DNA from: an uncultured bacterium | Lineage (GTDB): Bacteria > Planctomycetota > UBA8108 > UBA1146 | Direction: 5' to 3' | Length of the DNA: 64,000 nucleotides | NCBI GenBank assembly: GCA_913056395.1 | Contig: CAJXMG010000003.1 | Coordinates: 62,001-126,000, forward strand | Shown: piece after piece, positions 3,246 through 6,644 of the stretch | Numbering within the stretch: position 1 is the first letter of the stretch | How the letters are laid out: the number at the start of each line of letters is the position of its first letter | Made by a program: the position numbers and the translations under genes | The notes under the pieces: generated by a model | Told to the model about the DNA's origin: nothing | The model's input: only the letters and a program-made list of their open reading frames with translations | Database searches by the model: none

Positions 3246-4934
3246 TTACGGCATCGGGTAGAAGTATTGGGTGTAAGGCGTGTCTGCCTTGCTCTGAAGT
3301 TCCAGATTTCGAATCAGCAAGGACGGGCTGATGGTTGAAACAGGAACCATGCCGCTTTCGGCTCCACACCAGGCATTGTCGATCACCGGATCATCGCCGG
3401 CAGCGATGATTCCCTGTACAGCATTCAGGGGTGTTCCGACAAAGTTGACTCCCCGAATCAGCTCTTCCCCGCCATCGGGAAAGACCCTCGCGGCAAGATT
3501 GATTTCGCCGAGGAAAGCCTGGAAATCGTAGGCGTCAGTCGTGGTTTCACCCGAGGAGGCATTCAGGATGCGGATGCCGTAAGGGAGATTTTGTCGCTTT
3601 ACCTCTTCGAGAAGTTTTGCCTTCAATTCCCGGGAAGTTGCCGTGTGTTCCGACTCGAGATGGGTGACGCCCATGCGACTGATCGCCCGTTCATGGTGAC
3701 TGGAACGGGCATGTCCGTTTGAAGAGTGTCGGCGTTCGATGGGAACCCGACTGGTCAGGAATCCCTTCAACTTGCCTCCCGAGATCAGATCAGCAGTCGC
3801 TGAAGGCGTGCCTTCATCGTCGAATCGGTAATGACCCACCAATGAGCGGGATTCGCCACTAGGCAACACAAGGTGTGAATCCTGCGGATGGTCGGAGAGG
3901 GACAGAAACTCGGGGAGGACTGTCTTGCCCAGGGAGTCGGCAAAGGTACGGGCCTCACCGCCTGACCGAAGGCGGTTCCCTTCAAGGCGGTGCCCCATCG
4001 CTTCATGGATCAGCAGGCCTGCTGGGATGGGATCGAGAAGTACCGGGCCGGAGTAGGAGTGGAAGCGCGGCGCAGCAGCCACTTTTTCGAGCAGTTGAGC
4101 TGCAGACCGAATCTCTCTGCGGATCTGTTTGAGATCAGGAAGTTCAGAGGGGTCGTTGACGAAGTGGCTGATGGTCCACGGGATTCCATCGCCCTTTTCA
4201 CTCAGGTGCCAAAGGTAGGCCTCCAGCTGCCAGAAAGCCTGGCTTTCAGCGATTTGTGAGCCGTCCGAATTGACGAAGAGCCGTGTCTGATGTTTGACCT
4301 GAAGGGAGACATGGCTGTTTTTGATCCCTGGATGGTTTCTGGCAGTGGCACTGGCCTTCTCGACATAACGGGACCAATGCTCCCGGTCGATGGATGGCAG
4401 TGAACCGGGAGCCAGATCGACCACCGGTTTTCGCTTCTCCCAATCATGAAGTTCCGGGTGCAGATTGAGGTAGGTCAGTTCATGAGCCTTGCGACGGAAG
4501 TAGGCTTCCTCCGCTTCACGATACTTGGCATCCGTCAAGCGCCAGAGACCGATTCGAAGTGCTTCCTTGCGATCATGAATCGGCAACCCCAGATAGTTGT
4601 AGGATTCTTCTTCCTTCGAGTTTTCCTCGAGACCACCTTCGCTGATCTGGTCTTTACGGAAAGATCCTACGTGGGCATCCGTGAGACAGTTTCTTCGCGA
4701 GTAGTGATCTTCCTTGTAAAGGGCACCGAAGCGGGCCTCTACGTTGAAGAACTCATGATCCCGAATCAGGTATGAGAGGTAAAAGAGTTTGGGAAGACCG
4801 GGTTTGCGCAACTTTTGCGCTGCCCTTTGGCATTCTTCGGAAGCGACCTGGACCAGTTTTTTGGCGGTGGAAGAATTAATCCTGAATCTCCAAGAGGCTG
4901 AAGACTTCGCAGTCGGGGATGAGGTTTCTGCCAT
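3246..4934 (-). CDS. TldD/PmbA-family metalloprotease homologue
   Basis: The family comprises Zn-dependent proteases such as TldD, which act on small peptides or antitoxins. The HExxxH zinc site is present near residue 309 (HEAMGHRLEGN), and the C-terminal conserved segment with Cys is present (NAWCGAESGMVPVS). The 562-aa length exceeds E. coli TldD (about 480), with extra sequence at the N terminus. The ATG at 4934 overlaps the end of apt by 59 nt, which is long for a coupled start. The true start may be a few codons downstream, close to the apt stop, but no good alternative ATG exists there. No second TldD/PmbA partner is seen nearby. It lies downstream of apt, probably on the same transcript. 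Confidence 0.8.
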   Translation of the reverse strand: MAETSSPTAKSSASWRFRINSSTAKKLVQVASEECQRAAQKLRKPGLPKLFYLSYLIRDHEFFNVEARFGALYKEDHYSRRNCLTDAHVGSFRKDQISEGGLEENSKEEESYNYLGLPIHDRKEALRIGLWRLTDAKYREAEEAYFRRKAHELTYLNLHPELHDWEKRKPVVDLAPGSLPSIDREHWSRYVEKASATARNHPGIKNSHVSLQVKHQTRLFVNSDGSQIAESQAFWQLEAYLWHLSEKGDGIPWTISHFVNDPSELPDLKQIRREIRSAAQLLEKVAAAPRFHSYSGPVLLDPIPAGLLIHEAMGHRLEGNRLRSGGEARTFADSLGKTVLPEFLSLSDHPQDSHLVLPSGESRSLVGHYRFDDEGTPSATADLISGGKLKGFLTSRVPIERRHSSNGHARSSHHERAISRMGVTHLESEHTATSRELKAKLLEEVKRQNLPYGIRILNASSGETTTDAYDFQAFLGEINLAARVFPDGGEELIRGVNFVGTPLNAVQGIIAAGDDPVIDNAWCGAESGMVPVSTISPSLLIRNLELQSKADTPYTQYFYPMP

Positions 4935-5421
4935 TGAGGAATGAAAGTTCCATCAGGAATCCCGCTCCGATCACGACGCCGCCCTGCTTTTCCGCCAGCT
5001 TCTCGCAGGCTGCAATGGTTCCTCCCGTTGCCAGAACATCATCGATCAGCAATACCTTTTGTCCCGGTTGAATGGCACCAGCTCTCATTTCGACGGTGTC
5101 AGTTCCATATTCCAGTTCATACTCCACGGAAATCGTTTCACCGGGCAGTTTTCCAGGTTTGCGAATGGGAATGAATCCGATGCCGAGGGCTTGGGCGACC
5201 GGCAACCCAAAGAGAAATCCCCGTGACTCCGGTGCCGCAATCAGGTCTGCGCCCAGGGGACGACTCTTCTCTGCGAGAAGTTCAACGGTTTCAGCAAAGA
5301 CCTCTGAAGAGGCGAGCAGGGGAGTGATGTCCTTGAATTGAATCCCCGGTTTGGGGAAATCGGGAACAGTCGCAATCAGGGAATCGATCCTGGCGATAAC
5401 AGAATCTTGAGAATCGGTCAT
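4876..5421 (-). CDS. apt: Adenine phosphoribosyltransferase
   Basis: Converts adenine and PRPP to AMP in cytoplasmic purine salvage. The protein has 181 aa, the usual family size. The PRPP-binding motif is clear (VLLIDDVLATGGTI), followed by the APRT C-terminal region (GAGFLMELSFLNGR). The start ATG at 5421 lies directly after a 14-bp hairpin and a run of six T residues on the coding strand; the only Shine-Dalgarno-like sequence (GGGAG) is inside the 3' arm of that hairpin. This suggests translation or read-through is controlled by folding of the leader. It overlaps the downstream TldD-like gene. Confidence 0.95.
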   Translation of the reverse strand: MTDSQDSVIARIDSLIATVPDFPKPGIQFKDITPLLASSEVFAETVELLAEKSRPLGADLIAAPESRGFLFGLPVAQALGIGFIPIRKPGKLPGETISVEYELEYGTDTVEMRAGAIQPGQKVLLIDDVLATGGTIAACEKLAEKQGGVVIGAGFLMELSFLNGRNLIPDCEVFSLLEIQD

Positions 5422-5424
5422 AAA

Positions 5425-5480
5425 AAACTCCCGTCCAAAATCTCCTCGGGGGGAGAGAGGAGCGTGTTGGACGGGAGTTT
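5425..5480 (-). promoter_or_regulatory. Strong hairpin with T-tract overlapping the apt ribosome-binding site
   Basis: Arms AAACTCCCGTCCAA (5425-5438) and TTGGACGGGAGTTT (5467-5480) form a perfect 14-bp inverted repeat. An inner 6-bp stem CTCCTC/GAGGAG sits in the loop on the minus strand. On the minus strand the second arm is followed by T residues (six in total) and then immediately by the apt ATG. It therefore has the form of an intrinsic terminator for the upstream sigma gene, yet its 3' arm also contains the GGGAG expected to recruit ribosomes to apt. It could be a terminator with read-through, an attenuator, or an RBS-masking element. Confidence 0.8.
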
Positions 5481-5514
5481 ATAACAACAGGGTTCTTTGG
5501 GGAAGCGACAGTCT

Positions 5515-6390
5515 TCAGCTGACGGTTTCTTCGTACTGTTCGTCAAACTGCTCGTCGTAGATTTCCGGTTTTTCAATCAGGCCTTCAGCTACAAGTTGCT
5601 GCAATTTGGCAAGCGCGTCGTTTTCAATCTGACGAACTCTCTCGCGGGAAAGTTTGATCCGTTGACCGATCTCCTTGAGAGTCATCGGTTCGCCGTTGTC
5701 GAGACCGTAGCGCATACGGACAATCTTGCGCTCTCGCTCATCCAGATGGCTCAGGAGATCCTTGATCATGTCGATCTGGATGTTTTTCTCCAGTGAGGTG
5801 TGCGGCTGAGTCTGGGACGGGTCCTCGATAATGTCGGAAATCGTCCAGGAGTTTTCGATGGAGATGGTCTGATTGGCAGAATCTGCGACGTGAAGAGCAT
5901 TCTGGATGATTTCGGTCTTCTCCAGAGGGATCTCCATGCGCTCAGCAATCTCGTGGAACATCGGTGGACGTCCCAACTCGATGGCAAGGTCTGCCGCAGC
6001 TCTCTTCCACTTGGTGATGGTTTCCACCATGTAGGAAGGAATACGAACCGATTTCACGGTGTCGATCAGGGCACGCTTGATAGACTGCTTGATCCACCAG
6101 GTTCCGTAAGTGCTGAAGCGGCATTCCGCAGCAGGGTCAAATCTTTCGACAGCCTTGAGAAGCCCGAGGTTTCCTTCCTCGATCAGGTCGAGAAGGGGAA
6201 GACCTCTTTCCACGTAGTGCTTTGCAATGCTGACCACCAGTCGAAGGTTGGAGCGGACCATATGGTCACGGGCTTCCAGATTTCCCTTCTGAACCTCGAT
6301 GGCCAACTCACGTTCTTCTTCCGCAGTCAGCAGTGAGTGACGATTGATGTCTTCAAAGTATGCTTCAAGTCCTACTTCGCGCGCGTTCAT
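5515..6390 (-). CDS. RNA polymerase sigma-70 family factor (RpoD/RpoS-like, no region 1.1)
   Basis: A 291-aa sigma factor with regions 1.2 to 4.2. Region 2 is well conserved (GNLGLLKAVERFDPA, FSTYGTWWIKQSIKRA), region 3 follows (GRPPMFHEIAERM), and region 4.2 ends with LSRERVRQIENDALAKL. There is no long acidic region 1.1, so it resembles a group 2 (alternative, stationary or stress type) factor more than the housekeeping one; this is inference from length. The ATG overlaps the stop of the upstream small gene as ATGA, indicating translational coupling. A strong hairpin follows the gene at 5425-5480. Confidence 0.92.
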   Translation of the reverse strand: MNAREVGLEAYFEDINRHSLLTAEEERELAIEVQKGNLEARDHMVRSNLRLVVSIAKHYVERGLPLLDLIEEGNLGLLKAVERFDPAAECRFSTYGTWWIKQSIKRALIDTVKSVRIPSYMVETITKWKRAAADLAIELGRPPMFHEIAERMEIPLEKTEIIQNALHVADSANQTISIENSWTISDIIEDPSQTQPHTSLEKNIQIDMIKDLLSHLDERERKIVRMRYGLDNGEPMTLKEIGQRIKLSRERVRQIENDALAKLQQLVAEGLIEKPEIYDEQFDEQYEETVS

Positions 6391-6644
6391 TTGGTGATCC
6401 CTTCAGGATTCGTCGTGACTTTCGAGAAGGGCTTGGCCATGAACATGCGCTGGCTTCCGCATTGATCAAGGAGCTCGAGGAGAACCCGCTTCTCGGCGGT
6501 GGTCTCCGGTCCAGGTGCGATTCCGGTGGAATCGGCAGTCTGTTCCCCTGCCACGTTTTGGTTGGTGTGGATTTCATCGCTGTTTGCGAGTCTTTCGGCT
6601 TCATTGAGAAGCTCTTCACAAATCAGCAGAATGGTTTCTTGCAT
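6387..6644 (-). CDS. Small hypothetical protein coupled to the sigma factor
   Basis: An 85-aa protein of unknown function. I chose the ATG at 6644 because GGAAGAG lies 6 nt upstream; a GTG at 6683 would add 13 residues. Its stop TGA overlaps the sigma-factor ATG, an arrangement typical of genes translated together. The N-terminal half is helical and acidic (ETILLICEELLNEAERLA), the middle is polar and probably disordered, and there is a second short helix (RVLLELLDQCGSQRM). No signal peptide or membrane segment. By position it could modulate the sigma factor, for example as an anti-sigma or assembly partner, but nothing in the sequence proves that. Confidence 0.55.
   Translation of the reverse strand: MQETILLICEELLNEAERLANSDEIHTNQNVAGEQTADSTGIAPGPETTAEKRVLLELLDQCGSQRMFMAKPFSKVTTNPEGITK

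Follow-up and report, generated by a model that had tools for sequence, protein, structure and literature searches.

Results

The sigma factor gene and apt

The window is a stretch of 64,000 nucleotides from the genome of an uncultured planctomycete (2.77 Mb in 57 contigs), which we label G000; other G and L numbers denote relatives and compared loci. The close relatives are metagenome-assembled genomes labelled Planctomycetota, including Planctomycetia bacterium TMED53. At positions 5515–6390 (−) the window carries the gene of a sigma-70 family factor of 291 amino acids with regions 1.2, 2, 3 and 4 (Pfam Sigma70_r1_2, r2, r3 and r4). Among the NCBIfam models RpoS and RpoD match best but stay below their cut-offs, and the superfamily model TIGR02937 is above its cut-off. 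The next gene in the same direction is apt (4876–5421 (−)), which encodes an adenine phosphoribosyltransferase of 181 amino acids (NCBIfam NF002636 and TIGR01090 above cut-off; Pfam Pribosyltran). From the sigma stop codon to the apt ATG the spacer measures 93 nt, a distance which makes the translational coupling to the sigma gene proposed in the initial annotation unlikely.

The apt frame is open for a further 19 codons into the hairpin described below (200 amino acids open vs 181). We rejected an earlier start in G000, as the upstream part of the frame contains no ATG, GTG or TTG. In-frame starts further upstream are found in G006 (TTG) and in G005 and G001 (ATG), and the apt start codon is therefore less certain in these genomes. 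The last 59 bases of apt (4876–4934 (−)) also belong to the longest frame of a PmbA/TldD-type gene (3246–4934); there may thus be co-transcription and translational coupling of apt with tldD.

A terminator-like hairpin on the apt ribosome site

The spacer is dominated by a perfect stem of 14 bp, which begins 34 nt past the sigma stop codon. Its 5′ arm is AAACTCCCGTCCAA (5467–5480 (−)) and its 3′ arm TTGGACGGGAGTTT (5425–5438 (−)), such that 5480–5467 pair with 5438–5425 and 28 nt lie between the arms. Both arms emerge from the sequence as well as from folding, shuffled controls and genome comparison. Between them folding predicts an inner helix CTCCTC/GAGGAG (5462–5457/5447–5442; 5442–5462 (−)), which would be present in both kinds of transcript considered below and whose letters are changed in G006 and G005 with the pairing kept. 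A run of six T residues (5422–5427 (−)), three inside the stem and three after it, adjoins the apt ATG (5421–5419). The apt Shine-Dalgarno motif GGGAG (5428–5432 (−)), six nt before the ATG and the sole GGGAG of the spacer, lies within the 3′ arm. A stem of 14 bp followed by T6, 34 nt past a stop codon, has the make-up of an intrinsic (Rho-independent) terminator. The initial annotation had described the stem, the T run that ends at the ATG and the position of the only GGGAG in the 3′ arm, and in all these points it is exact to the base.

RNA folding, which had been suggested as a check, yields a stable terminator. The segment 5514–5400 (−) folds with −37.7 kcal/mol (z = −4.66), none of 200 dinucleotide shuffles was as stable, and the minimum-energy and the centroid fold of the spacer are both the terminator. 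When the 93-nt spacer was shuffled 1000 times with conservation of dinucleotides, the longest perfect stem over the ribosome-site region had 11 bp, and stems of at least 10 bp arose three times. We also compared 653 candidate ATG starts (at most three per open reading frame, frames of at least 150 amino acids) from 464 kb of the genome, that is, 400 kb of stretches plus the window. The apt stem is the longest over a ribosome site in this set, with 14 bp against 9 bp for the runner-up. The hairpin over the apt ribosome site is far beyond chance.

The hairpin is missing from the output of a generic terminator scan, as this admitted loops of 3–8 nt only. The ordinary strong terminators of the sample (stems of at least 11 bp) form hairpins of mostly about 26–41 nt, from which we deduce mostly short loops, and are mostly located 12–35 nt past a stop codon, some up to 91 nt. 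With the crude gene calls that were used in these scans of 464 kb, the apt hairpin is the only listed non-coding one with a T run touching the start codon of a predicted gene; after the terminator at C4:5886 a candidate start follows 10 nt further on. The sampled genome (L122–L141 and the window) is rich in near-perfect terminators of 11–18 bp. At several places a terminator is called on either strand (L123, C1:27584/27613; L124, C1:45448/45472), and these are probably bidirectional.

The genome holds no second copy of the hairpin; the additional matches are its own reverse strand and one match of 15 nt. A search for GGGAGTTTTTNATG with up to two mismatches returned 66+53 matches vs 38+44 for the reversed control. 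Seven other loci from this search were folded, and a strong terminator before an ATG was present in L120 with none seen in the other six. At L120 (G000:C14:47510-47523, minus strand) the terminator AAACGCCCGGG/CCCGGGCGTTT, with a T run and CATG, stands directly before the ATG of a candidate open reading frame.

Conservation in the family

We compared the locus in 16 genomes of the family. In 15 of these the sigma gene directly precedes apt in the same direction. The hairpin adjoining the apt ATG is found in 11 of the 16, with seven distinct spacer sequences: all seven genomes of the window's genus have it, as do four of five in genus g4. It is absent from G013 (g4), G008 (g3), G007 (g2) and from G010 and G012 (both g5), and in G015 (g4) the U tract is weak (TTTCC only). 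Alignment was confined to 13 genomes since the spacers of G007, G010 and G012 are unlike the rest.

Within the window's genus (four aligned genomes with three distinct spacers) the blocks ATAAACTCCCGTCCA and TGGACGGGAGTTTTTT are invariant and the loop varies. Between the genera the arm words differ (AAACTCCCGTCCAA vs ATCCCCCTTCAG). Changes on both sides affect 4 of 11 pairs in one register and 5 of 12 in another, and there is not a single one-sided change. Thus it is the pairing and not the sequence that is conserved. The initial annotation had recommended a comparison of both arms in relatives, and its view that termination and translation-start signals are superimposed draws support from the sequence and from this conserved pairing. 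At the position of the hairpin G013 and G008 have seven and six contiguous pairs, respectively (G-U allowed), without a T run.

A predicted promoter of apt

Further upstream the 13 aligned genomes share two more invariant blocks, CTTnCnC and ATA, at a fixed distance. To evaluate this region we fitted a two-box promoter model with TTGACN/TANNNT as its seed. The training set was drawn from upstream of 30 among the genome's 42 tRNA matches; it includes several poorly scoring members, and in a tRNA cluster a gene may lack a promoter of its own. Two other approaches did not yield a sigma-70 consensus. Motif learning on the upstream regions of 196 open reading frames drifted to a non-promoter motif and gave no sigma-70 motif, and 41 divergent intergenic regions showed no enrichment (TTGACA 3 vs 6.65 expected, TATAAT 1 vs 1.24 expected). 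The promoter grammar therefore rests on the tRNA genes and the seeded model. The tRNA promoters (L142–L171) fit TTGACn-17-TAnnnT, often with G or C just before the TA, and their −10 box is very degenerate at its centre.

The best model match in the 150 bases before apt has the same −10 in all 13 aligned genomes and reads TTCCCC-17-TAAACT in the window's genus. The predicted −35 box TTCCCC (5499–5504 (−)) coincides with the invariant CTTnCnC and is a poor match to TTGACA; a general consensus promoter scan found no promoter before apt. The predicted −10 box TAAACT (5476–5481 (−)) shares five bases with the stem, and TAnnnT recurs at the same place in the 13 genomes. The G000 match reaches 11.6 bits vs 7.0 ± 2.0 in mononucleotide shuffles, a score attained by 1.0% of 2000 random genomic 150-mers. 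About two standard deviations or more above the shuffles are found in 9 of the 13 genomes (five distinct spacers), and the other four (G009, G014, G011 and G015, all g4) are within one standard deviation; three of these four prefer a 16-bp spacer with the same −10. Beyond the aligned set we scanned G007, G010, G020, G023 and L025, where the corresponding position showed no clear promoter: G007 has 9.2 bits with a different −10, G010 3.9 bits (below shuffles), G020 and G023 7.2 bits, and L025 9.1 bits at a different place.

The terminator-less genomes G013 and G008 retain the promoter block (10.4 and 9.4 bits) and the ribosome site. The block is thus conserved independently of the terminator. 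Going by the model, TTCCCC-17-TAAACT (5504–5476) seems to be a promoter that belongs to apt itself. A separate apt promoter inside the loop had been named in advance as an observation that would speak against control by the hairpin. The comparison does point to a separate promoter; its predicted position coincides in part with the 5′ arm and is thus outside the loop.

Geometry of the overlap and access to the ribosome site

By prediction, then, the apt promoter is placed on the sigma terminator. In the window's genus the −10 box and the stem have five bases in common. For G009 the overlap is two bases, and for G014, G011 and G015 the −10 adjoins the 5′ arm or is one base off. In the 11 hairpin genomes the 5′ arm ends 8–11 bases past the −10. 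A start at the usual seventh base would therefore leave 2–5 nt of the arm in the RNA; for the window the predicted start, the 7th–9th base past the −10, falls on the last bases of the 5′ arm (5467–5469 (−)). It follows from this geometry that the 5′ arm would reach from the −10 to near +1, and that the ribosome-binding site would form the 3′ arm. The 25–30 nt between the arms in the hairpin genomes fit a 5′ leader.

We computed the cost of opening the ribosome site for RNA coming from upstream and for RNA beginning at +7. In eight hairpin genomes (the other three have the spacer of G000) it falls from 14.1–18.3 to 2.7–8.3 kcal/mol, and for G000 itself it is 16.8 kcal/mol in read-through RNA vs 3.5 kcal/mol in RNA from the apt promoter with the start deduced above. 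The cost drops as well in the terminator-less G013 (10.8 to 3.5) and G008 (8.2 to 3.8). It is thus lower in the short RNA in all ten genomes computed, so that the site is predicted to be less accessible in read-through RNA, as in transposase genes of the IS200/IS10 type. The short RNA of G000 has an unremarkable fold (z = −0.35). "Open" is meant only in relative terms, because in the short RNA of five genomes (G006, G009, G014, G011 and G015) the ribosome site is mostly paired with coding sequence, with a mean unpaired probability of 0.01–0.05, and because in G008 this probability hardly changes (0.19 to 0.22).

The sigma–apt order beyond the family

The sigma–apt order occurs at the window and at L018, L024–L027, L029, L046, L049, L057, L082, L091, L097, L100, L104, L105 and L109. 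In other Planctomycetota the spacers measure 120–324 nt (59 nt in L046), and some carry hairpins of their own, for example a classical terminator in L025. In L024 and L047, which judged by length are on one contig, a short G+C-rich unit, CAGCGCCGTCCCG, is repeated several times head to tail between the sigma stop and apt. Nine loci with this order are from Verrucomicrobiota, and in eight of them the candidate apt start lies 2–13 nt past the sigma stop codon (108 nt in L049). Judged from these distances co-translation of the two genes is plausible in Verrucomicrobiota, and translational coupling looks likelier there than in the window's family, where the sigma gene and apt are separated by a terminator and a promoter-like element. 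We also noticed the order in L062 (labelled Spirochaetes) and L090 (Ghiorsea). Among the more distant apt loci, 80 in number, many have no sigma match beside apt. The recurrence of the order in the compared sequences suggests an old functional link.

Discussion

We suggest that the hairpin is an intrinsic terminator of the sigma gene which is built from the promoter and the ribosome site of apt, and that it insulates apt constitutively. On balance we hold this to be the probable explanation. It builds on the hairpin, its conservation and covariation and the position of the promoter-like element. The 5′ arm would be the DNA from the apt −10 to about its transcription start, the 3′ arm would be the Shine-Dalgarno region and the U tract would serve as the spacer before the ATG. 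Transcripts of the sigma gene would carry both arms and terminate at the apt ATG. Where the polymerase reads through, the ribosome site would be locked in the stem and the RNA would be poorly translated. Transcripts from the apt promoter would start near the end of the 5′ arm; they would not form the outer stem, would not be terminated and would have a more open ribosome site. Because of this start the RNA of apt itself could escape both blocks. The proposal thus presumes a working promoter, a start near the end of the arm, efficient termination and a translational lock. As the promoter block and the ribosome site both persist where the terminator is missing, they may predate it.

A different explanation is an attenuator. 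Here most apt expression would come from sigma transcripts that read through, with the hairpin setting the ratio, perhaps by means of an unknown factor or antiterminator. The adjacency of the two co-directional genes in 15 of the 16 family genomes and the start of apt 2–13 nt past the sigma stop in eight of nine Verrucomicrobiota loci agree with this idea, and it follows from both that co-transcription may be ancestral. However, the ribosome site of the read-through RNA would be locked at an opening cost of 14.1–18.3 kcal/mol, no Rfam element is found, no fold competes with the terminator as minimum-energy or centroid structure, and the promoter-like element is conserved. The initial annotation had advised a search for an alternative antiterminator. 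On inspection the spacer of G000 offers nothing above about five weak pairs: a weak pairing of GGGAG with the conserved CTTCCC would comprise about five pairs, far below the 14 bp of the stem. We therefore regard an attenuator as unlikely.

It could also be that the hairpin is a plain sigma terminator which came to lie beside apt by chance of genome compaction. The apt promoter would then be located elsewhere, for instance inside the sigma gene, and the overlap would be meaningless. Strong terminators some 12–35 nt past stop codons are indeed common in this genome, and the present one begins at 34 nt. Yet it is the only listed non-coding hairpin in 464 kb with its T run on a predicted start codon, and two genera keep the arrangement despite different arm sequences. 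Moreover, a promoter inside the sigma gene would presumably put the terminator into the leader of apt itself. A fortuitous neighbourhood thus appears improbable. We give still less credence to the view that the inverted repeat is mainly the binding site of a protein regulator of apt. The arms are invariant in the four aligned genomes of the window's genus (three distinct spacers), which agrees with this view, but the second genus has other arm letters and nevertheless pairing and T run persist; the −10 box and the ribosome site already account for the constraint on each arm, and the genome has no second copy. Purine-responsive or coupled control, as put forward in the initial annotation, is hardly credible: its sole support is the identity of apt as a purine-salvage gene, an Rfam search of positions 4800–6500 at E up to 1 for a purine aptamer or other element remained empty, the 34 nt between the sigma stop and the stem are too short for a known purine aptamer, and inspection of the G000 spacer revealed no leader open reading frame.

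Insulation of apt by its own initiation signals would have parallels in known systems. The overlap of terminators and promoters between operons was reportedly treated in a primary paper by Brandis et al. in 2019. In Salmonella the tufB and secE operons are consecutive and the terminator of the one overlaps the promoter of the other; breaking the overlap lowers fitness (PMC7055797). The S10-spc-alpha operons are concatenated in a similar manner, and a second paper deals with the conservation of the concatenation (PMC8046335). The sigma–apt locus is alike in two respects. The terminator of one unit would overlap the promoter of the next co-directional unit, and the neighbourhood is old and conserved, here in Planctomycetota and Verrucomicrobiota. 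Beyond the overlap of tufB-secE, the apt terminator also holds the Shine-Dalgarno motif and ends at the ATG, which would involve translation; we state this for apt only.

In IS10/Tn10 the transposase gene is protected from impinging transcription, and transcripts from its own promoter start inside one arm and escape. For IS200 it is reported that impinging RNA is terminated and that the ribosome site of the transposase is occluded (PMC3196728). The apt locus would share the termination of outside transcripts and the occlusion of the ribosome site. While IS200 relies on a pair of distinct stem-loops, the apt locus has a single stem for both tasks. The protected gene of IS200/IS10 is a transposase and here it is apt, a chromosomal housekeeping gene. 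With this gene and a hairpin in single copy the locus is not a mobile element of that type.

Some terminators of riboswitches and attenuators also sequester the Shine-Dalgarno sequence, and like these the apt hairpin bears a U tract and a ribosome site in one structure. In contrast to them, Rfam search and inspection revealed no aptamer, leader peptide or antiterminator at the apt locus. The apt hairpin would choose by the place at which transcription starts and not by a ligand. By analogy the apt case resembles a merger of terminator-promoter overlap and read-through protection in one stem before a housekeeping gene. Among the matches listed, which consist of titles, abstract starts and passages and mostly lie outside subscription journals, this combination is undescribed, which is no proof of its absence. 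The passages considered from PMC7566282 and PMC10319736 contain no counterpart to the apt arrangement.

Going further, and more tentatively than for insulation as such, we propose a bifunctional hairpin gated by the start site. The initiation DNA and the Shine-Dalgarno region may have evolved jointly to become the arms of a single terminator. The identity of the promoter would thereby set both whether the RNA ends and whether it can be translated. If this is true, such gating has been kept for a housekeeping gene across at least two genera, and it could itself favour the retention of the old sigma–apt neighbourhood.

If insulation is the right explanation, one hairpin of about 56 bases does the work of terminator, leader and insulator alike. 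The outcome would then be set by the place of the transcription start with no need of a ligand or protein. This would be a compact natural design of an insulator. It would also supply a rule that can be searched for, namely a 5′ arm between −10 and +1 that is complementary to the downstream ribosome site, and it would offer a tangible explanation for the lasting adjacency of some operons.
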